This document shows positions 27,718-57,332 of a DNA stretch of 64,000 bases, in pieces. The notes beneath the pieces are model-generated. The model was not told the origin of the DNA. It saw nothing but the letters and a program-made list of their open reading frames with translations, and ran no database searches. The stretch covers positions 1-64,000 of the forward strand of contig CALGKJ010000061.1 of assembly GCA_937930535.1 (NCBI GenBank), given 5' to 3'. The number at the start of each line of letters is the position of its first letter. Position 1 is the stretch's first letter. The stretch is from an uncultured Clostridia bacterium. Its GTDB lineage: Bacteria; Bacillota; Clostridia; Lutisporales; Lutisporaceae. The translations under genes were made by a program, and so were the position numbers.

Positions 27718-30700
27718 ATGATAAATAATACTGCAAAGGAATTGATAGTTAATACAGGGAAGTATAACGCCGAAAAGGGCTTTTGGGTAGAAAGACTTGC
27801 AGGTCTGAGTGAGGTAACGAGTTTCTCCTCTGATTATAACAGCTATGCAGACGAGAAAAATCATTATTCCAAAAATATAATTGGAGTTAATGGAATACTT
27901 TGTAAAAGAATTATAGACATAAGTAATAGCAATATCAATAATATACATTCAATACTAACTGCTTGTTTAATACTGCTGATAAAAAAGTATTCAAGCAGTG
28001 CAAGTGTAGCAGTTGGTTCTCCCGTATTTATAGAAGGCAAAGACTGTATAGATGAATTAATAAATAAATATTTTGTCATCGTAACAAATGTGGAAGATAA
28101 TATGACCTTCAAAGAACTTTTGGTCCGAACAAGAAATAGCATTAAAGACTCCATTAGCAATCAAAGCTATCCTTTTGAGCTATTAGAAAAAGATTTAGAC
28201 AATTGGAATATAGTAAAGGAAAGTCTCAGCAGCATAGTCGTATTATTTGAAAATATACATAGCTATCAATTAGTAGAAGCTTTGAACGCAAAAATGTATT
28301 TTATGTTTAGCAAGGAGGCTGACAGCATATTTCTAAGTGTTATGTATTCAAATAGTAATTATGATAATAGTACTATAGAAAGAATAACAAAACACTATAT
28401 GGAAGTGCTGAACAATGTATTATTCAACACAGAAATTAAAGTATCAGAAGTTGAATATATGACAGAAGAAGAAAAATTGCAGTTATTGGCAGAGTTTAAT
28501 GATACAGCAGCAGAATATCCAAGGGATAAGACAATACAAGAGCTGTTTGAACAGCAAGCAGAAAAGACACCTTATAATATAGCAGCCGTATTTAAAGGAC
28601 AGCATGTAACCTATAAGCAGCTAAATGAGAGGGCAAATCAATTAGCACGAACATTGAGGCTAAAAGGGATAAAAGCAGATAGCATAGTTGGCATAATGGC
28701 AGAACGTTCAATAGAGATGATAGTGGGCATAATGGGAATTCTCAAGGCAGGTGGAGCATATCTGCCAATTAGTCCTGAATATCCTGTAGATAGAATAAAG
28801 TATGTAATTGATGATAGCGGGGCAAGCCTGCTGCTTACACAAAACCATCTCCTGGGAAAAGCTTATGGGGGTATAGAGATACTGAATCTTGAGGATGACA
28901 GTATATATGATTTGAATAGTTCAAATCTTGAGCCTGTAAGCAGTTCTAAAAGCTTGGCTTATGTAATATATACGTCAGGCTCAACGGGTAAGCCTAAAGG
29001 AGCAATGATAGAGCATCATTCAGTAGTAAATAGAATAAAATGGATGCAGAAGAAATATACCATCAGCTCAGAGGATGTAATATTGCAAAAGACTCCATAT
29101 ACCTTCGATGTATCAGTATGGGAGCTGTTCTGGTGGGCTATGGAGGGAGCCAAGGTAGTATTCTTGATACCAGGGGGAGAAAAAGATCCTTCTGAAATAC
29201 TAAAGGCAATAGAGGAACACAAGATAACTACAATGCATTTTGTACCATCTATGCTTAATACCTTTCTTGAGCATCTTGAGGGGAAGGATGAGCTATATAA
29301 TCTAAAAAGCTTGAGACAGGTATTTGCCAGCGGTGAAGCCTTGACATTGCAGCAGGTTGAAAGGTTTAATAAGCTTCTTAACAGTAAGCTTGGTACAAAG
29401 CTTATTAACCTATATGGACCTACTGAGGCGACGGTTGATGTATCATATTTTGATTGTTCAACAGGGGAAAAGCTTGATACAGTACCAATCGGTAAGCCTA
29501 TAGACAACATAAAGCTATTTATAGTAAATAAATACAATCAACTATTGCCGATAGGAGTGGCAGGAGAACTGTGCATATCTGGCGTGGGATTAGGGAGAGG
29601 TTACCTTAATAGACCAGAACTAACGGCAGAGAAGTTTGTGGCAAATCCATATGAGCAAGGTGCAAAGATGTACCGTACAGGAGACTTGGCAAAATGGAGA
29701 CCTGATGGCAATATAGAGTATTTGGGAAGAATAGATTATCAGGTGAAGATACGGGGGTTTAGAATAGAGCTTGGGGAAATAGAAAACAAACTATTAGAGC
29801 ATAAAGCAATAAAGGAAGCTGCAGTTATAGCGAGAGATGATAGTAGTGGAAATAAATATTTATGTGCCTACATAACAGCAGAAAGAATACTTGTAACAGG
29901 AGAATTAAGAAAGTATCTATTTAAGGATTTGCCGGATTATATGATACCGTCATACTTCATACAAATGGATAATCTGCCGCTTACACCAAACGGAAAGCTA
30001 GATAGAAAGATACTACCAGAGCCTAATAGAAGCATTTGCACAGGAGTAGAATATGAACCGCCAAGAAATGAATTGGAAGAAAAGCTGGTGGAAATGTGGA
30101 AGGAAGTACTTGGAGCAGACAAGGTGGGGATAAATGACAGCTTCTTTGATCTTGGAGGACACTCACTAAAAGCCACAAGCTTATCAGTAAAAATACACAA
30201 GCAGCTTAATGTAGAGGTACCGTTAAAAGAAATATTTAAGGCACCAACAATAAAAGGTATATCAGAATATATAAAAGAAACAGAAGCGAGCATATATGCA
30301 GCAATAGAAAAAGCAGAAGAAAAAGAATACTACCAAGCATCTTCAGCCCAACGCAGAATATATGCATTGCAGCAGCTTGAGCCTGACAGTACAAGCTATA
30401 ACATGCCGGGAGCAGTAGAGATAGAAGGAAAACTAGATAAAGCAAAGCTGGAGGAAGCCTTTAACAAGCTGATACAAAGACATGAGAGCTTAAGAACAAG
30501 CTTTGAATTAAGAGAAGAACAAATAATACAAATTATACATAAAGAAGTAGAATTTGAAGTAGAGTGTATAAGGCTTCAAGGGAATATAGAAAAAGAAGAT
30601 GCAGAAAAAGAAATAAAGAGGCTTGTAAGAGAGTTTAATTTAAGTAAGGCACCATTATTGAGGGTGGGACTTATTGAGATACACCCGGAGAAGCATATAT

Positions 30701-37974: not shown

Positions 37975-40900
37975 ATGAGAACTATACAGTATGCATTAAC
38001 AGAAAGTTTTAGTTCATATAAGGATAATATTGCAATAGAATATGGAGCAGATTTTATTACATACAGTCAGCTAGATGAAAAAAGCAGCTATATTGCCAAT
38101 GATATTATTAATTCAGGAATAGCTGCGGGTTCAAATATTGGTATATATATTGAGAATAAAATTGAATTAATAGCTGCGGTTATCGGGGTTATTAAAGCTA
38201 GATGTGTATTTGTTCCCTTAAGCAGTGAATATCCGGACAAGCGTACAAAGCATATGATTGAAAGTGCAGATGTACATTACATTATTATGGATAAATTAAA
38301 TTTAACTAGTTACGGCGAATTACTAAATGATGTTGATGGGATTATGCAGACCATTGTAATAGATGACAGTTATTACAATGGGGAAAAACACAGCCTTGAA
38401 AGGTTTGTACAATTGGAATATTCACCAGAGGACAGTATATACATATACTTTACATCTGGCACCACCGGCAAGCCTAAAGGGATACTGGGCAGAAATATAA
38501 GTCTGCTGCAATTTATTAAATGGGAGATAGAACAGTTCCAGATAGATAGTTCTTATCGTATAAGCCAGCTTACTTCTCAATGTCACGATCCTTTTTTAAG
38601 AGATATATTTGTACCTTTATGTACAGGGGCAGCTATTTGCATACCACAAAACAGTAAAGGGCTTTTAGAGCATGGTAACATTATTAATTGGCTGGAAAGC
38701 ACTAGAATAAATTTAATTCACTGCACACCAAGTTTATTTGAGATTGTTTATTCAGGTAATATCAATGATAAAATGTTTTCAAGCCTAAAATATGTGTTTT
38801 TGGCAGGTGAACGTGTTATACCAGCAAAGCTGAAAAAGTGGTACGATACTTTTGGAGATAGAGTACAGCTGGTAAATTTATATGGACCCACTGAAACTAC
38901 GCTGGCAAAGCTTTTTTACCCTATTCAAAAGGAAGATTGTAATAAACAGATCATTCCAATAGGACAGCCCATAAAGGGTGCTAGAGTGATTATACTTAAT
39001 GATAAGGATGAGAACTGCAAGGTAGGTCAAGTGGGAGAGATATACATAAGAACACCTTATAGAACCCATGGGTATTATAATAATGCCCAGTTAACAAAAG
39101 AAAAATTTATACAAAACCCATTTAGTAATGATTTAAACGACTTGATATATAAGACTGGCGACTTAGGAAAGCTTTTACCTGACGGCAATATTGAGTTTAT
39201 TGGAAGAGTCGACAGACAAGTTAAAATAAGAGGATATCGTGTGGAATTAGAAGAGATCGAGAAGGTTTTGATGGAGCACCAGGACATAGAGTCGGCAGTG
39301 GTGTTAGAAAAGCAGTCAGGCAGTACTGAAAACTTTTTGTGTGCATACTATGTTGAAAAAAATACAGGCAATAATTTAGTATACACAGGGGAAACAATTA
39401 GAGAATATCTTAGATTTATACTTCCAAGCTATATGATTCCCATTCACTATATTAAACTAGATGAGATGCCTTTAAATAATAATAGAAAAATAGATTATAA
39501 GCTTCTTCAAGACATTCCCATAAGCTGCGAAAGGAATATAATAAAACCTAGAAATGAGGTTGAAGAAAAAATAGCTGCAATATGGCGTGAGGTTTTAAAT
39601 ATAGATCAGATTGGCATAGACGAGGGTTTCTTTAATATAGGTGGTCATTCCCTAAATGCTATGAGGGTTTTAACAAAATTATATAAAGAGTTCAATATTA
39701 ATATTAGTTTATCTATAATGTTTCAAAACCCAACAATAGAAATGTTGGCAAAGCATATTAAAGATTTTACGAAAACTCGTTTCAAGAGTATTGATAAAGT
39801 TGAAAATAAAGAATACTATGAATTATCATCTGCCCAGAAGAGGATATATGTATTAAATAACCTAGAAGAAGCTAATATCAGCTACAATATAACAAATGCT
39901 GCTGCAATTAACGGAGATATAGATATATCAAGGTTTGAGCTGACACTTAGACAGCTAATAGACAGGCATGAAGCATTAAGAACCAGCTTTGCTTTGGTAG
40001 ATGGGGTACCAATGCAAAAAATCCATGACTCTGTTGATTTTAGCATTGAGCATTTTTCAGCTGATGAAGACGAAATAACCGATGTTATTAAAGGCTTTAT
40101 CCGTCCTTTTAAGCTTAACCAGCCGCCATTAATGAGAACTGCGCTAATAAAGGTAAAACCTGACAGCTATGTTATGGCAGTGGACATGCATCATATTATT
40201 GCTGATGGCACATCCATGGGGATTCTTATTCAGGAATTTGTGAAGCTGTATAACGGAGAACAGCTTAAAGACCTAGCTATACAATATAAAGAGTTTGCTG
40301 CATGGCAAAATAACCTATTTGAGTCAAATGCTTTAGCAGAGCAGGAAAACTATTGGAAGGAGCTGTTTAAAGAGGGTGCCCCAGTATTGAATCTGCCTGT
40401 AGATTTTGAAAGACCTATCAAGCAAAGCTTTGAGGGGGATACTATTGACTTTAATATTCCAGTAAGTATAACAAATGATTTAAAGCAAATAGCAAATGAT
40501 AGGAATGTCACTTTGAATATGCTGCTTTTTAGTGTATTTTCAATATTATTATCCAAGTACAGCAAGCAGGAGAAGCTGATTATCGGCTCTCTGATTGAGG
40601 GTAGAAACCATGCAGATTTAGAAAACATTATCGGGGTGTTCCCCAACTTTTTACCTATAAAAGTTGAAATTGAAAAAAGAAGAACCTTTTCAGAAGTGCT
40701 TGATTACGTAAAGAAACAGCTTCTTTGTGCTTATGAAAACCAAGATTATCCTTTTGAAAAGATAGTAGAAATAGCTGATATAGGGGTGGATTACTCTCGA
40801 AATCCACTTTTTGACACCATGCTTATATTTCACAATCAAATTGACCCCAAGACGAATGGTGGCATTGATAATTTGCAGTTCCATGAATATGATTACAACA

Positions 40901-43900
40901 AAAAAATAGCAAATTTGGATATTAAAGTTGATGTATACTTGGATTATTCAGGGAGGCTGAGCTGCAAGCTGCAATACAGCACTGCTTTATTCAAAACAGA
41001 TACTATCAATCGGATGAAAAAACACTTTTTGAACATAATTGACCAAGTAATCAAAGAACTCGATATACCTGTTTATGAAATTGAGCTTACTACAGCAGAG
41101 GAAAAAAATCACATATTAAATGAGTTTAATGATACAAAAGTGTTCAAAGATAATAATAAGAAGCTTTATGAATTATTTGAAGAACATGCGGAAAAAAGTT
41201 CAAATAGTATTGCTGTTGTATACAAGGATAAGAGCTTTACATATAAGGAAATAAATATAAAGGCAAATAAGCTGGCTAGAGTGCTGATAGAAAAAGGGAT
41301 CGGCGAGGATGATTTTGCAGGCATATTAATGGAAAGATCTGAACTTATGCTGGTAAGTGTTATTGCAGTATGGAAAGCTGGTGGGGCATATATACCAATT
41401 GATACTGCTTATCCTAATGACAGGATATCAGATATAATGAGTGATTCAGGAGCAAAACTGCTGATAGTTAACAGCATTGATGCAGAGCAGCTTGATATAA
41501 GTGAGGATAAAATCATCGACTTATCAAAAATTGATGACTATATAAGGGATAAGGCTGAAACAAATATAGATAAAAAAACTGATATGAGCAGCTTGGCATA
41601 TGCCATATACACATCGGGTTCAACTGGGAAGCCAAAGGGGGCAATGGTAGAACACTGCGGGATGATGAATCATATGCAAGCCAAAATTGATATTATGAAG
41701 CTTGATTCAAATAGTGTTATTTCTCAGAATGCATCCCATTGCTTTGATATATCTGTATGGCAATTTTTCTGTGCGTTAGCCCTTGGTGGAAAAACAGTAA
41801 TTATCCCGAATGAAACAGTACTTAACTCAAACCAGTTTATAAGCGTTATAGAAAACCAGCAGGTAGATATTTTAGAGGTAGTACCTTCTTATCTTTTAGA
41901 GCTGTTTGAAATTTTAAGAGAAAATAAAGAATGCTTTAATAGACTAAAATACCTAATGATTACTGGTGAGGAGCTAAAGAAAAAGTTAGTTGAAACTTGG
42001 TTTAGTATATACCCCCACATACCAATTATCAATGCATATGGACCTACTGAAGCTTCAGATGATATTACACATTATGTTATGAAAGGTATTCCGGAGGGTG
42101 AAAAAATATCTATAGGAAAGCCTATACAAAATCTGAAAATAACAATAGTTACGGAGGAAATGAAGCTTTGTCCTATTGGAATATATGGAGAATTATGTGT
42201 AGAAGGTATAGGTGTAGGCAGAGGCTATATCAACAGAAAGGAGCTTACTGAGAAGCATTTTTGTCAAAGTCCGTTTACACCAGGGGAAAGAATGTACAAG
42301 ACAGGAGATTTGGCAAGATGGCTGCCTGATGGTAATATAGAATTTTTAGGAAGAATGGATAGCCAGGTTAAAGTCAGGGGCTTTAGAATAGAGCTTGGTG
42401 AAATTGAAATCAAAATACAAGGCTATAAGGATGTAAACGAGGCAGCAGTTATTGTACGTAAAGATAATAAAGGCGAAAACTGCTTGTGTGCATATATTAA
42501 GGGAGAAAAAACCTTAAGGATGCCGGAACTTAAAGAGTATTTGGCTAAAAAGCTTCCCTATTATATGATTCCCGCCTTATTTATTGAAATAGATGAGATG
42601 CCTTTAAATGCTAATGGGAAGATTGATAGAAAAGCCCTGCTGTACATAGACGGAGTAACCCATACCGGAACAGAATATATTGAACCTCAAAATGAACTTG
42701 AAAAGAAGTTGGCAGATATGTTCTGCAATATATTGGGTTTGAACCAAGTAGGGATAAATGATAATTTCTTTGAATTAGGCGGGCATTCATTAAAGGCTAT
42801 GAATTTAGCAGCAAAAATAAATAATGAATTTAATGTTGAGTTTCCTCTGGGAGAATTATTTAAATCACCTACAGTCGGCGAGATGTCAATATATATACAA
42901 GGCTTGGACAGGAATGCATTCTCCTCAATAAAGCAAATACAAGAAAAAGAATACTATTCACTGTCTTCGTCGCAGAAGCGTATGTATATGCTGCAGAAGC
43001 TTGATGTAAACAGTATCGGATATAATATGCCCGGAGTAGTAGAGATAGAAGGCAGGCTTGATACGGAAAGATTGGAGCAAGCATTTAAAGCGTTGGTGGA
43101 AAGGCATGACGGCTTAAGGACGAGCTTTGACTTTAGGGAAGAGGATCCTATTCAAAAAATACATAAAATTGCAGAACTGAAAATCCAATATATAAAAGCA
43201 GAAGAAAATCAAGTGGAAGGTATAGTTAAGGAATTTGTCAGACCTTTTGATTTAAGTAAACCGCCGCTGCTGAGAGTAGGACTAATCGAACTACATCCAA
43301 AAAGGCATATACTGATTTATGATATGCATCATATAATATCTGACGGAGTTTCAAAGGCAATACTGCTTAAAGAATTTGCAGACTTATATGAAGGCAGGGA
43401 GCTGCCTGAGCTGAAAATTCAGTACAAGGATTATGCTGCATGGCAGGATGAGCTATTTAAATCAGACAGGATAAAGAAGCAGGAGGAGTACTGGCTGGAG
43501 GTATTAAAGGAAGAGATACCCATATTAAACCTGCCGACAGACTACTCAAGACCAGCAATACAAAGCTTTGAAGGAGATAGAATAAGCTTTGAGCTGGATA
43601 GGAAGAAGACTGGAGATTTAGTAAGAATAGCGAAGGATACAGGAAGCACAATGTACATGGTTCTGCTGTCTGCCTTTAATATCCTATTATCAAAATACAG
43701 CGGACAGGAAGATATAGTAATAGGTAGCCCCATAGCTGGAAGATCCCATGCGGATTTAGAAAACGTAATAGGAATATTCATTAATACTCTTGTAATGAGG
43801 AATCATCCAGATAGAAATATAAGCTTTTCAGAGTTTTTACAAAGAGTTAAAGAGAATTCTTTAAAAGCATATGAAAATCAGGACTATCAGTTTGAAGAAT

Positions 43901-46900
43901 TAGTGGATACGTTGAATGTGAGAAGAGATATGAGCAGAAATCCTATATTTGATGTTATGTTCATAATGCAGAATATGCATAATGGAGATATATCACTAAA
44001 GGATTTAAGAATTAAACCCTATAAGCAGGAACATAATATCTCAGTTTTTGATTTGATTTTTGAAGTAAGCGAAGCAGATGATAAGCTGGTTATCTATGTA
44101 GAATTTTGCACTAAACTATTTAAGAAAGACACTATAAAGAAAATGACAGCTCACTTTGAAAGAATAGTTGAAGTAATAAGCAAAGATAAGCAAATAAAGC
44201 TGAAGGATATAGATATAACTTCCCAGGCAGAAAAGAAACAGATATTAGAAAGCTTCAACGATACTTATGCACATTACCCGCTTAATAAAACTGTTCATGA
44301 GTTGTTTGAAGAACAGGTGGAGAAAACACCAGATAATGTGGCAGTTATATTTGAGGATAATAAGCTGACATATAAAGAGCTTAATCAAAAGTCAAACCAG
44401 CTTGCAAGGGAGCTAAGAAACAGAGGGGTAAGAGCTGACAGCATAGTAGGAATAATGGTAGAGCGATCACTGGAAATGGTAGTAGGAATAATGGGGATAT
44501 TGAAGGCAGGAGGAGCATATCTGCCAATAAGTCCAGATTATCCACCGGATAGGATAGAGTATATCCTTGAGGATAGCGGAGCAAAGCTGCTGCTTACACA
44601 AACGAAGCTGGCAGACAGAGTCAACATAAAAGATTTAATTGATTTGGAGGAAGAAAACATATATAAAGCAGCTGTTGAGAACCTGGATAACATATCAACC
44701 TCAACAAATCTCGCATATGTTATATATACATCAGGTTCTACCGGCAAACCTAAAGGAACAATGATAGAGCATCACTCCTTGATAAACAGGCTGAAATGGA
44801 TGCAAAAGCAATATCCATTGTGCCAGAAGGATGTGATTTTACAGAAGACTACATATACTTTCGATGTATCAGTATGGGAATTGATATGGTGGTCCTTAGA
44901 AGGTGCCGCTGTATGTATGCTTAGCCAAGGAGCAGAAAAAGACCCTCAAGAGATTGTGAAAGCAATAGAAAAGCATAACATAACAGTAATGCATTTTGTA
45001 CCTTCTATGTTAAATATGTTTCTTGAGCATTTAAAGATAAATGGAGAACTAAGCAGATTAAAAAGCCTGAGACAAGTGTTTGCAAGCGGAGAAGCGCTGA
45101 CACTGCACCAGGTTGAAATGTTCAATAGATTAATAAACAAAAACTGCGGCACTTTACTTGCAAACCTATATGGTCCTACAGAGGCAGCAATAGATGTATC
45201 ATATTTCGACTGTACCATAGATAAAGAGCTGGATAAGGTTCCGATCGGCAAACCAATAGATAATATAAAACTATATATTGTTGATAAAAATAATAAATTA
45301 CAGCCTGTAGGAGTATCGGGAGAGCTCTGCATAGCAGGAGTAGGACTAGCAAGAGGATATCTTAACAGACCTGAGCTGACAGCAGAGAAGTTTGTCAATA
45401 ATCCCTTTGAAGAGGGAACAAGAATGTACAAAACAGGAGATCTTGCTAAATGGCTGCCTGATGGAAACATAGAGTTCCTGGGCAGAATAGATGACCAGGT
45501 AAAAATACGCGGATTTAGAATAGAGCTTGGGGAAGTAGAAAATGCACTTAATAAATGCCCATACATAAAGGATTCGGTAATTATCCATAGGAAAGATAAT
45601 TTTGGAGTTGGGTATTTAGCAGCTTATATTGCTGTAGATAAAAAAAATATGGAACTATATAACGGAAAGAAAAGATATAAATTGCCTAACAATATGTCCA
45701 TATTACATTTAAATAGAAATGAAACAGATTTTATGTATAAGGAAATATTTGAGGACCAAAGCTATTTTCAATATGGAATAGAAATAAAGGACAATGATTG
45801 TGTTTTTGATATAGGTGCAAATATAGGAATGTTTACATTATATGTAAATGGTGTTTGTGAAAACGCAAACATATATGCCTTTGAACCTATACCCAAAGTT
45901 TTTGAGGTTTTGGACTGTAATTGTCAATTGTATACAAATGGAACTAAAATATTTAACTATGGTATTTCAGATACAAATAAAGAAACCACATTTACATACT
46001 ATCCCAAGGCTACTATAATGTCTGGCTGTTATGGCAACACAGCAAAAGATAAGGAATTGTTTGAAAATTCTATGACTGATTTAAATGATTTGAAAATGGA
46101 AGAAAAGGAAAGTGTAGAGAAATACAAATCAGAGCTGATTCAGGAAAGATTTCAAAAGGAAGACTTTAAATGCCAGTTAAAAACTCTGTCAGAAGTAATA
46201 AAGGAGAATAATATAGAAAAAATAGACTTACTAAAGATAGATGTTGAGAAAAGTGAAATGGATGTTCTTATGGGAATACATAATCATGATTGGGCGAAAA
46301 TAAAGCAAATAGTTATTGAAGTGCACGAAATAAACGGTGAAATAGATAAAATCACGGAACTGCTCAATCAAAATGGGTATGTGGTATTTATAGGAGTAGA
46401 GGAAGGATTAGAAAATAGCGGATTATACACTGTATATGCAAAAAGTAGAGAACTGGCAAAGGAAGCAGCAGCAAAGGATGTATGGAATAAGAGCGAAGTT
46501 AGTATTATTCAAGATAATGTATTGACTACAGAGAAAGTAAGAAACTATTTACTCAATATATTGCCAGATTACATGATACCGTCATATTTTATCCAAATGG
46601 ACAAGCTGCCGCTGACTGCAAATGGAAAGGTAGACAGAAAGGCACTGCCAGAGCCGGATGGAAGTCTGATAACAGGAGCAGAGTTTGAGGAAACAAGGAA
46701 TGAAACAGAAGCCAAGCTTGTAGAAATATGGAGGGAGGTTCTGGGAGTAGATAAAATAGGAATAAACGATAACTTCTTTGAACTAGGAGGACACTCACTA
46801 AAAGCTATAAGCTTGGCAGCAAAGATACACAAGATCTTTGATGTGGAAGTTCCTTTAAGTGAGATATTCAAGCTTTTGACGGTAAAGGGAATAGCAGAAT

Positions 46901-48303
46901 ATATCAGTAGTGTGGAAAAGAATATGTACACAACAATAAATGCGGCTGAGGAAAAGGAGTATTATGAAGCTTCGTCAGCCCAAAAAAGAATGTATACCTT
47001 GCAGCAAATTGATTTGAATAGTACAAGTTATAATATGCCGGGTGTACTAGTGATAGAAGGTATGCTGGACATAGAAAGATTGAGGGAAGCTTTTAAAAGG
47101 TTAATACAAAGACATGAAGCTTTTAGAACTGGCTTTGAATTAGGACAAGAGGGAATAATACAAAAAATATACAAGGAAGTGGAATTCAAAGTAGAATATG
47201 TTGATTTACAATCTATAGAAGAAAAAGAAATTGAAAAAATAGTCAGCCGCTTTATAAGAAGTTTTGACTTGAATAAGGCACCGCTGCTAAGAGTGGGATT
47301 AGTTAATGTATCTAAAGATATTACATTGGAAAAGTATATTTTGATGTACGACATGCACCATATAATATCAGATGGTATATCCATGGAAATATTAGTCAAG
47401 GAGTTTGTTGAATTATATTCGGGAAAAGAACTTGCTCCTCTAAGGATACAATACAAGGATTTTGCGGAATGGCAGAATAAGTTATTCAGGAGTACAAGGA
47501 TAAAGAAGCAGGAGGAGTATTGGTTGAGTCAGTTCGCAGGAGACATACCGGTACTAAACCTTCCGACAGATTATTCTAGACCAGCTATGCAAAGCTTTGA
47601 GGGGGACAGGATAAGCTTTGAGCTGGAGGAAGAATTGACAGAAAAGTTAAGGAACATAGCAAGAGAGACAGGAAGTACCATGTACATGGTGATGTTGGCA
47701 GCCTTTAATATTTTATTATCAAAATACAGCGGACAGGAAGATATAGTAGTAGGGACTCCAATAGCGGGAAGACCACATGCGGATTTGGAAAACATAATAG
47801 GTATATTTGTAAATACCCTTGCCATGAGGAACTATCCAAGGGGAGAGAAAACTGCAAGAGAATTTATAGAGGAAGTAAAAAACAATGCTCTAAAGGCTTA
47901 TGATAATCAGGATTATCAATTTGAAGAGCTTGTAGAAAAACTAAATATACTAAGAGATATGAGCAGGAATCCGCTATTTGACATTATGTTTGCAATGCAG
48001 AATATAACAATGACAGAAGCCAGTATAGATGGATTAAAGGTAAGCGGGTATAAAACAAATACAAAAACGACCAAGTTTGACTTAATGATAGAAATATTTG
48101 AAGGTACTAGCACGATAGTATTAAACCTCTCCTATCTGACAAAGCTATTTAACAAAAGCTCAGCATATAGGATACTGGAAAATTATAAGGATTTGCTATG
48201 GGAAATAGTTAAAAATACGGATGCCAAATTGTCAACGTTCAATGTAAAGACAAATTTTAAGAAGATAAATGTAAAAAAAGAAGAGGTTGATTTTGACTTT
48301 TAA
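37975..48303 (+). CDS. NRPS 3: A(?)-T-C-A(Dab)-T-C-A(Ser, FkbM-MT inserted)-T-C
   Basis: Synthetase of 3442 residues. It starts directly with A7 (about 1-520), whose usual FDxxxWE segment is replaced by CHDPFLRDI; pocket DPRHFALLA is unassigned. T7 Ser559. C8 (613-1040), HHIIADG. A8 (1059-1560) pocket DIWEMTADD is one change from the 2,4-diaminobutyrate code DIWELTADD. T8 Ser1605. C9 (1659-2085). A9 (2102-2900) pocket DVWHFSLID reads Ser and is interrupted at about 2557-2825 by an FkbM-type methyltransferase. T9 Ser2941. C10 (2995-3442) is complete and ends KKEEVDFDF. A GGGGTTGA site precedes ATG 37975, 21 bases after NRPS2. No Dab biosynthesis gene lies in the window. Confidence 0.95.
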   Translation: MRTIQYALTESFSSYKDNIAIEYGADFITYSQLDEKSSYIANDIINSGIAAGSNIGIYIENKIELIAAVIGVIKARCVFVPLSSEYPDKRTKHMIESADVHYIIMDKLNLTSYGELLNDVDGIMQTIVIDDSYYNGEKHSLERFVQLEYSPEDSIYIYFTSGTTGKPKGILGRNISLLQFIKWEIEQFQIDSSYRISQLTSQCHDPFLRDIFVPLCTGAAICIPQNSKGLLEHGNIINWLESTRINLIHCTPSLFEIVYSGNINDKMFSSLKYVFLAGERVIPAKLKKWYDTFGDRVQLVNLYGPTETTLAKLFYPIQKEDCNKQIIPIGQPIKGARVIILNDKDENCKVGQVGEIYIRTPYRTHGYYNNAQLTKEKFIQNPFSNDLNDLIYKTGDLGKLLPDGNIEFIGRVDRQVKIRGYRVELEEIEKVLMEHQDIESAVVLEKQSGSTENFLCAYYVEKNTGNNLVYTGETIREYLRFILPSYMIPIHYIKLDEMPLNNNRKIDYKLLQDIPISCERNIIKPRNEVEEKIAAIWREVLNIDQIGIDEGFFNIGGHSLNAMRVLTKLYKEFNINISLSIMFQNPTIEMLAKHIKDFTKTRFKSIDKVENKEYYELSSAQKRIYVLNNLEEANISYNITNAAAINGDIDISRFELTLRQLIDRHEALRTSFALVDGVPMQKIHDSVDFSIEHFSADEDEITDVIKGFIRPFKLNQPPLMRTALIKVKPDSYVMAVDMHHIIADGTSMGILIQEFVKLYNGEQLKDLAIQYKEFAAWQNNLFESNALAEQENYWKELFKEGAPVLNLPVDFERPIKQSFEGDTIDFNIPVSITNDLKQIANDRNVTLNMLLFSVFSILLSKYSKQEKLIIGSLIEGRNHADLENIIGVFPNFLPIKVEIEKRRTFSEVLDYVKKQLLCAYENQDYPFEKIVEIADIGVDYSRNPLFDTMLIFHNQIDPKTNGGIDNLQFHEYDYNKKIANLDIKVDVYLDYSGRLSCKLQYSTALFKTDTINRMKKHFLNIIDQVIKELDIPVYEIELTTAEEKNHILNEFNDTKVFKDNNKKLYELFEEHAEKSSNSIAVVYKDKSFTYKEINIKANKLARVLIEKGIGEDDFAGILMERSELMLVSVIAVWKAGGAYIPIDTAYPNDRISDIMSDSGAKLLIVNSIDAEQLDISEDKIIDLSKIDDYIRDKAETNIDKKTDMSSLAYAIYTSGSTGKPKGAMVEHCGMMNHMQAKIDIMKLDSNSVISQNASHCFDISVWQFFCALALGGKTVIIPNETVLNSNQFISVIENQQVDILEVVPSYLLELFEILRENKECFNRLKYLMITGEELKKKLVETWFSIYPHIPIINAYGPTEASDDITHYVMKGIPEGEKISIGKPIQNLKITIVTEEMKLCPIGIYGELCVEGIGVGRGYINRKELTEKHFCQSPFTPGERMYKTGDLARWLPDGNIEFLGRMDSQVKVRGFRIELGEIEIKIQGYKDVNEAAVIVRKDNKGENCLCAYIKGEKTLRMPELKEYLAKKLPYYMIPALFIEIDEMPLNANGKIDRKALLYIDGVTHTGTEYIEPQNELEKKLADMFCNILGLNQVGINDNFFELGGHSLKAMNLAAKINNEFNVEFPLGELFKSPTVGEMSIYIQGLDRNAFSSIKQIQEKEYYSLSSSQKRMYMLQKLDVNSIGYNMPGVVEIEGRLDTERLEQAFKALVERHDGLRTSFDFREEDPIQKIHKIAELKIQYIKAEENQVEGIVKEFVRPFDLSKPPLLRVGLIELHPKRHILIYDMHHIISDGVSKAILLKEFADLYEGRELPELKIQYKDYAAWQDELFKSDRIKKQEEYWLEVLKEEIPILNLPTDYSRPAIQSFEGDRISFELDRKKTGDLVRIAKDTGSTMYMVLLSAFNILLSKYSGQEDIVIGSPIAGRSHADLENVIGIFINTLVMRNHPDRNISFSEFLQRVKENSLKAYENQDYQFEELVDTLNVRRDMSRNPIFDVMFIMQNMHNGDISLKDLRIKPYKQEHNISVFDLIFEVSEADDKLVIYVEFCTKLFKKDTIKKMTAHFERIVEVISKDKQIKLKDIDITSQAEKKQILESFNDTYAHYPLNKTVHELFEEQVEKTPDNVAVIFEDNKLTYKELNQKSNQLARELRNRGVRADSIVGIMVERSLEMVVGIMGILKAGGAYLPISPDYPPDRIEYILEDSGAKLLLTQTKLADRVNIKDLIDLEEENIYKAAVENLDNISTSTNLAYVIYTSGSTGKPKGTMIEHHSLINRLKWMQKQYPLCQKDVILQKTTYTFDVSVWELIWWSLEGAAVCMLSQGAEKDPQEIVKAIEKHNITVMHFVPSMLNMFLEHLKINGELSRLKSLRQVFASGEALTLHQVEMFNRLINKNCGTLLANLYGPTEAAIDVSYFDCTIDKELDKVPIGKPIDNIKLYIVDKNNKLQPVGVSGELCIAGVGLARGYLNRPELTAEKFVNNPFEEGTRMYKTGDLAKWLPDGNIEFLGRIDDQVKIRGFRIELGEVENALNKCPYIKDSVIIHRKDNFGVGYLAAYIAVDKKNMELYNGKKRYKLPNNMSILHLNRNETDFMYKEIFEDQSYFQYGIEIKDNDCVFDIGANIGMFTLYVNGVCENANIYAFEPIPKVFEVLDCNCQLYTNGTKIFNYGISDTNKETTFTYYPKATIMSGCYGNTAKDKELFENSMTDLNDLKMEEKESVEKYKSELIQERFQKEDFKCQLKTLSEVIKENNIEKIDLLKIDVEKSEMDVLMGIHNHDWAKIKQIVIEVHEINGEIDKITELLNQNGYVVFIGVEEGLENSGLYTVYAKSRELAKEAAAKDVWNKSEVSIIQDNVLTTEKVRNYLLNILPDYMIPSYFIQMDKLPLTANGKVDRKALPEPDGSLITGAEFEETRNETEAKLVEIWREVLGVDKIGINDNFFELGGHSLKAISLAAKIHKIFDVEVPLSEIFKLLTVKGIAEYISSVEKNMYTTINAAEEKEYYEASSAQKRMYTLQQIDLNSTSYNMPGVLVIEGMLDIERLREAFKRLIQRHEAFRTGFELGQEGIIQKIYKEVEFKVEYVDLQSIEEKEIEKIVSRFIRSFDLNKAPLLRVGLVNVSKDITLEKYILMYDMHHIISDGISMEILVKEFVELYSGKELAPLRIQYKDFAEWQNKLFRSTRIKKQEEYWLSQFAGDIPVLNLPTDYSRPAMQSFEGDRISFELEEELTEKLRNIARETGSTMYMVMLAAFNILLSKYSGQEDIVVGTPIAGRPHADLENIIGIFVNTLAMRNYPRGEKTAREFIEEVKNNALKAYDNQDYQFEELVEKLNILRDMSRNPLFDIMFAMQNITMTEASIDGLKVSGYKTNTKTTKFDLMIEIFEGTSTIVLNLSYLTKLFNKSSAYRILENYKDLLWEIVKNTDAKLSTFNVKTNFKKINVKKEEVDFDF
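45647..46450 (+). other. FkbM-family methyltransferase inserted in Ser adenylation domain A9
   Basis: Between A8 motif IRGFRIELGEVE and the final A-subdomain (VRNYLLNILPDYMIPSYF) lie about 270 extra residues with FkbM signatures: VFDIGANIGMFTLYVN (SAM motif I), AFEPIPKVFEVL and LLKIDVEKSEMDVLMGI (usual LKID.EG.E). FkbM enzymes are O-methyltransferases, so O-methylation of the tethered Ser side chain is the likely outcome; the kutzneride enzyme KtzH is the precedent I recall for an O-methyltransferase inside a Ser A domain. Confidence 0.88.
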
Positions 48304-56447: not shown

Positions 56448-57332
56448 ATGAAAAACAGTGATTTAGCCAAAACACTTATAAAGCAAAACGAAAAATTGTT
56501 TTTATGTCCTAAATGTAACAAAAATATAAGAGTTATTAATGGTAAAAGCTTAGTATGCAAAAGTAAGCATTGTTTTGATATATCCAAGACTGGATATATC
56601 AACTTTCTGCTTAATTCAGTAGATACTCACTATGATAAGAAGCTGTTTGAATCAAGAAACAAGGTATGTAAGCAAGGTGTATTCGACCAAATGATAACCA
56701 AGATTACCAGCTTGGTAGATACATATTATTTGAAAGATTGTAAAGAAAGCAGCATAAACATTTTGGACGTTGGATGTGGAGAAGGCTCACATTTAGCCAA
56801 TACTATTGAAGCTTTGAAAAACAAATACACTATGAATTTTAGAGGATTAGGTATAGATATTGAAAAGGAAGCCATAAAAATAGCGTCTAGAGAATATGGT
56901 GATATAATTTGGTGTGTGGCAGATTTAGCCAAAATCCCCTTTATGAGCAAGCAATTTGATATTGTATTTAATATTTTTACACCCTCAAACTATTCTCAGT
57001 TTAATAGAATTTTAAAAAAGGATGGTATTTTAATAAAAGTAATACCTAATAGTAACTATCTAGTAGAACTAAGAAATATATTTTATGATGACACAGATAA
57101 ACAAAAATATTCTAATGAAAAGGTTATTAAGCACTTTTCTGACAATCTTAGAATCATAGAACAAGATAATATATTATATACTGTTGAGCTAGATAGAGAG
57201 AATCTGGAAAGGATCATTCAAATGACACCACTTTCTTGGGAAGTAAGCAGTGAAAAAATTCAAAAAGCATTGGATATGAAAATAGATAGTATAACCATTG
57301 ATTTATGTTTTATAGTAGGAACGCTCAGATAA
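56448..57332 (+). CDS. rlmA: RlmA-family 23S rRNA (guanine-N1)-methyltransferase
   Basis: A 294-residue enzyme. An N-terminal zinc-binding motif (C20, C23, C37, H41 in CPKCNKN...CKSKHCFD) followed by ISKTGYINFL is the RlmA hallmark, and a SAM-binding domain follows with LDVGCGEGSH (about 107-116), GIDIEKEAI and the NIFTPSNYSQFNRILKKDG region. The family methylates G745 (RlmA-I) or G748 (RlmA-II/TlrB) in helix 35 of 23S rRNA; TlrB gives tylosin resistance. SD GGAGG precedes ATG 56448. It lies between the NRPS genes and the exporter pair, so a self-resistance role is a reasonable inference. Which guanine it modifies cannot be told from sequence. Confidence 0.85.
   Translation: MKNSDLAKTLIKQNEKLFLCPKCNKNIRVINGKSLVCKSKHCFDISKTGYINFLLNSVDTHYDKKLFESRNKVCKQGVFDQMITKITSLVDTYYLKDCKESSINILDVGCGEGSHLANTIEALKNKYTMNFRGLGIDIEKEAIKIASREYGDIIWCVADLAKIPFMSKQFDIVFNIFTPSNYSQFNRILKKDGILIKVIPNSNYLVELRNIFYDDTDKQKYSNEKVIKHFSDNLRIIEQDNILYTVELDRENLERIIQMTPLSWEVSSEKIQKALDMKIDSITIDLCFIVGTLR

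Follow-up and report, generated by a model that had tools for sequence, protein, structure and literature searches.

The ninth adenylation (A) domain, A9, of a nonribosomal peptide synthetase (NRPS) assembly line harbors an FkbM methyltransferase within its own sequence, and by analogy with characterized synthetases we consider it probable that A9 is a bifunctional, a8–a9-interrupted A domain whose embedded methyltransferase makes O-methyl-Ser at position 9 on the peptidyl carrier protein (PCP). The assembly line is encoded in the window analyzed here, 64,000 nucleotides of DNA from an uncultured Clostridia bacterium. A9 would adenylate L-serine and load its own PCP; the FkbM domain would then use SAM to methylate the side-chain hydroxyl of this serine while it is bound to the PCP, and O-methyl-Ser would be formed before condensation. 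The methyltransferase activity, its oxygen target, and methylation at the PCP-bound stage are what we infer from the parallels with KtzH and TioS. The original prediction placed O-methyl-Ser at position 9, and this is still what we infer as the best reading, now supported by a survey of substrate codes and by precedents. A9 adds one more case to a class already known, methyltransferase-interrupted A domains, and does not constitute a new kind of system; one residue of the peptide product becomes predictable as O-methyl-Ser.

Architecture of the interrupted A domain

A9 is encoded by the third NRPS gene of the cluster (37975..48303, on the forward strand, as are all features of the assembly line given below), which specifies a 3442-residue protein with the domain order A-PCP-C-A-PCP-C-A[FkbM]-PCP-C. 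Pfam recognizes three A, three C, and three PCP domains and one FkbM methyltransferase (PF05050) in this protein, and PF13193, corresponding to the C-terminal A subdomain, passes for just two stretches, as expected if an insert splits the third A domain, which is A9. A condensation domain (42949..44247; PF00668, aa 1659-2091) is followed by the N-terminal core of A9 with motif A8 and the first strands of the C-terminal subdomain (44293..45633), the insert, the remaining C-terminal subdomain with motif A10 (46525..46647; NGKVD, harboring the catalytic Lys), and the PCP predicted to receive serine (46714..46905; PF00550, aa 2914-2977). The core and catalytic motifs A3 (at 44725), A4 (44854), A5 (45163), A7/A8 (45427-45540), and A10 (46609) are all present and flank the insert on both sides. 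Both halves of A9 are in one frame, with the auxiliary domain between motifs A8 and A9, the arrangement by which interrupted A domains are recognized, and the reading frame is open across the whole NRPS, insert included, with no decay.

To read substrate codes, we used an alignment in which a Thr domain of standard code DFWNIGMVHK served as anchor. The code of A9 is DVWHFSLIDK, which we assign to Ser. By the same code table, the A domains of the assembly line would read, in order, Thr, His, Orn, Ser, DVSNMALIYK (no assignment), Gly-like, DPRHFALLAK (no assignment), Dab, Ser (A9), Thr, and Val-like. The fourth of these, domain A4 in the preceding gene (28489..30303, including its PCP; code DVWHFSLVDK), is an uninterrupted Ser A domain and provides an internal control from the same assembly line. 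Over the core, it shares 74% identity with A9, and it has no insert, so that alignment of the two fixes the borders of the inserted segment (≈297 residues) at about 45634-46524, between the strand YLAAYIA (ending at 45633) and the helix before motif A9, TTEKVRNYL (starting at 46525). This is the standard a8–a9 interruption site. Corresponding comparisons for domains A7 and A8, in which the search pattern extended into A9, were discarded as invalid. The insert had been expected after motif A8, as found, and ahead of the C-terminal subdomain, whereas the alignment with A4 places it inside that subdomain; likewise, a proposed extent of 45647-46450 located the FkbM domain (45808..46383; aa 2612-2803) correctly but fell slightly short of the borders of the insert. 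An assembly artefact is an unlikely source of this architecture judging from its distribution, since an identical architecture is found in Clostridium cibarium and in many other genomes. A4 and A9 belong to one assembly line and share a Ser code, but only A9 has the insert, which makes them a clean natural pair for the engineering of interrupted A domains.

The presence of an FkbM domain inside a Ser-coded A9 is borne out by the profile search that had been proposed as a check, with a match of the insert to PF05050 at 71.4 bits (cut-off 22.7) and a further match to TIGR01444 (fkbM_fam) at 98.8 bits (cut-off 37.7). A structural model, likewise proposed, is in agreement: in the AlphaFold model of the complete A-M-A-PCP unit, pLDDT averages 83 and exceeds 90 across much of the methyltransferase core, and the A core of the model can be superposed on those of Ser A domains, for example, Txo1 and FscH, at 1.2-1.4 Å. 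Foldseek matches to this model include the interrupted A domain of TioS (5wmm; 944 columns), which like A9 is interrupted at a8–a9 by a class I methyltransferase, presumably not of the FkbM type. Modeled separately (pTM 0.83), the methyltransferase best matches the FkbM protein 2py6 (Z 15.7, 2.1 Å over 169 residues), with other class I methyltransferases within 1 Z; 2py6 is a separate protein, whereas the FkbM domain of A9 sits inside an A domain, and the Gly usual in the signature is replaced there by KS. When the methyltransferase part was searched by sequence against the PDB, no clear relative emerged.

Substrate codes of FkbM-interrupted A domains

Beyond A9, we found approximately 20 A domains with an FkbM interruption, distributed over Bacillota, cyanobacteria, Acidobacteriota, Proteobacteria, and Streptomyces, with one IMG/VR contig also among the sources. 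Those of C. cibarium, Nostoc, Acidobacteriota, Eleftheria, Methylocystis, Rhizobium, Bradyrhizobium, and Paenibacillus share the a8–a9 architecture and motifs of A9, and their methyltransferase parts are 32-49% identical to that of A9, with C. cibarium at 49%; many differ from A9 in their A code, which is of the Thr, Asp, Asn, Glu-like, or Cys-like type or has no assignment. Within Bacillota such domains are rare, with a match in this genome only (1 of 398) at the cut-off used. In a tree of the methyltransferase part, the deeper forks are weakly resolved and the embedded domains form no single supported clade, their grouping following code in some cases and organism in others.

Full codes are available for 20 FkbM-interrupted A domains, A9 included, and correspond to Ser (5), Thr (4), Asp (3), Asn (1), Glu-like (3), and Cys-like (1) residues, with three unassigned; outside this set are one partial Ser case and one partial code (L063), the readable half of which fits Asn. 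All assignable codes thus belong to residues whose side chain contains a heteroatom; codes for Ala, Gly, Val, Leu, and Phe are absent. As a control, we collected A domains interrupted by N-methyltransferases (N-MT). A search with PF08242 returned mostly other methyltransferases, and the one interrupted A domain recognized by motif pattern among 20 long open frames became the query for a set of 25 cyanobacterial N-MT-interrupted A domains. Two of the 25 codes are Thr and none is Ser, with many of the Leu, Ala, Gly, or aromatic type. Ser and Thr together account for 9 of 20 FkbM-interrupted domains vs 2 of 25 N-MT-interrupted domains (Fisher p 0.006, or 0.04 for distinct codes only), values that serve as guides since the sequences are related and unevenly sampled and the FkbM set spans several phyla, whereas the N-MT set is cyanobacterial only. 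At the level of sequence, this pattern supports side-chain methylation by FkbM inserts, and the restriction to heteroatom codes, unlike the cyanobacterial N-MT interruptions, lends support to side-chain O-methylation in particular.

These data bear directly on the main rival reading, that the FkbM domain methylates the α-amino nitrogen of the PCP-bound serine to give N-methyl-Ser, as in classical A8–A9 N-MT interruptions. N-Methylation takes this place because EreM, which belongs to the FkbM family, N-methylates the backbone of a ribosomal peptide (PMC9259500), and the insertion site in A9 is the same as that of N-MT domains, among them TioS A4 (5wmm), the methyltransferase of which is an N-MT (PMC11355689). 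Beyond the contrast in codes, however, the N-MT control domain is of another sequence type, found with PF08242 and not with PF05050, and we consider N-methyl-Ser unlikely. The survey also yields a testable rule, namely that an FkbM domain in an A domain means side-chain and not backbone methylation.

The acceptor of the FkbM family does not appear to be one fixed group, since related domains also interrupt A domains of the Asp, Asn, Glu, and Cys types. A broader proposal, which we put forward tentatively and hold to be doubtful, is that FkbM a8–a9 inserts may be a widespread portable cassette for side-chain methylation, joined with Ser, Thr, Asp, Asn, Glu-like, and Cys-like A domains and also giving side-chain methyl esters or S-methyl residues, with A9 representing the O-methyl-Ser branch.

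Several of the relatives merit individual mention. In C. cibarium (L003), the FkbM domain lies in an A domain with the Cys-like code DLFNMSLIWK, from which S-methyl-Cys or some other Cys modification would be expected. Three Acidobacteriota (L060, L061, and L062) have FkbM in A domains with the Asp codes DLTK(V/I)GHVGK, for which a methyl ester on the side chain would be expected, or methoxy-Asp following hydroxylation. The source genome itself encodes a second FkbM-interrupted A domain (G000:C14:13935-14795; L002; L146:5788-9273) in a C-A(FkbM)-PCP arrangement with the code DLKNFGTDIK (no assignment), adjoining genes for PKS, radical SAM/B12-like, and KAS-III-like proteins; a Rhizobium plasmid (L034) harbors a matching code, DLKNVGSDVK. 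On a plasmid of Nostoc sp. C052 (L028), a MupA/Atu3671-type luciferase-like monooxygenase and an FkbM domain are found within one A domain, a double interruption. Our search of the open literature found no direct study of FkbM in interrupted A domains, which may already be covered in the KtzH paper or in Lundy et al. 2020, reportedly the paper that classifies interrupted A domains; no O-methyl-Thr module was found in the puwainaphycin paper.

Conservation of the SAM-binding site

The class I SAM motifs (DxGANxG, FEP, and LLKID) are all kept in the FkbM domain of A9. In motif I, VFDIGANIGMF (45802..45834), the residues D, G, A, N, and G are invariant among 13 embedded domains, as is FEP of the acidic loop after strand 2, AFEP (45871..45903), which by homology to class I methyltransferases would contact the ribose. 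The FkbM signature DLLKIDVEKSEMDVL (46225..46269) contains LKIDVEKSE and retains the LLK that is nearly invariant among the 13. The original prediction correctly noted that the signature Gly is changed here. Stand-alone cyanobacterial FkbM relatives retain EGEE at this position, whereas EKSE, EKAE, ENAE, or QKAE is usual in NRPS-embedded domains; by sequence comparison, LKIDVEKSE is therefore the usual signature of embedded FkbM domains and not decay, and the replacement, common to most of them, is no warning sign. This replaced glycine is what might suggest a folded but inactive relict or a structural spacer, with Ser entering unmodified. We regard this as very unlikely, given how common the replacement is, the open frame, and the invariant SAM-site residues, the loss of which had been named as grounds for rejecting the original prediction and all of which the alignment shows to be kept.

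Precedents for O-methyl-Ser formation

KtzH was originally named as the closest precedent, and this holds: in module 4 of this kutzneride synthetase (A4-Ms-A4), a methyltransferase between a8 and a9 of a Ser A domain O-methylates the Ser side chain, ColG is a further precedent, and methylation in interrupted A domains comes after PCP loading (PMC11355689). The other FkbM enzymes of MIBiG clusters are listed as O-methyltransferases, either demonstrated or likely (PMC9259500). It is highly improbable that the FkbM domain of A9 methylates another target, either a neighboring chain residue or a partner substrate in trans: CysQ, a separate O-methyltransferase of cystobactamid, does methylate a residue carried by the NRPS module CysH (PMC7966384), so methyltransferases can serve carriers in trans, and FkbM inserts interrupt A domains of a broad range of codes, but embedded M domains tested to date act on the residue of their own A domain (PMC11355689) and the interrupted-domain codes are enriched for side-chain acceptors. 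O-Methylation of the serine loaded by A9 itself also has a parallel in thiamyxin module 10, which, as its module description has it, combines Ser with an oMT domain, the proposed source of the O-Me-Ser in the NMR structure (PMC10100342). By its description, thiamyxin module 10 resembles A9 as a Ser module with an O-methyltransferase domain, and O-Me-Ser is seen in the thiamyxin product; the thiamyxin system, unlike A9, is myxobacterial. It is on the KtzH and thiamyxin precedents that A9 is read as a probable maker of O-methyl-Ser on the PCP.

KtzH and A9 are both Ser-specific with a methyltransferase at a8–a9; KtzH O-methylates Ser, as A9 is predicted to. KtzH is said, in the Zolova paper, to need the MbtH-like protein KtzJ, whereas a PF03621 search found no MbtH homologue in the source genome (97.2% complete), which has three phosphopantetheinyl transferase-type matches. 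For want of a PF03621 match, A9 is likened to KtzH, taken here by its description, only in its manner of working and not as a homologue. Directly 3′ of the last NRPS gene is a gene for an RlmA-like rRNA methyltransferase (56448-57332), followed by two ABC exporters; RlmA-like enzymes can confer ribosomal antibiotic resistance, and this may therefore be a self-resistance gene.
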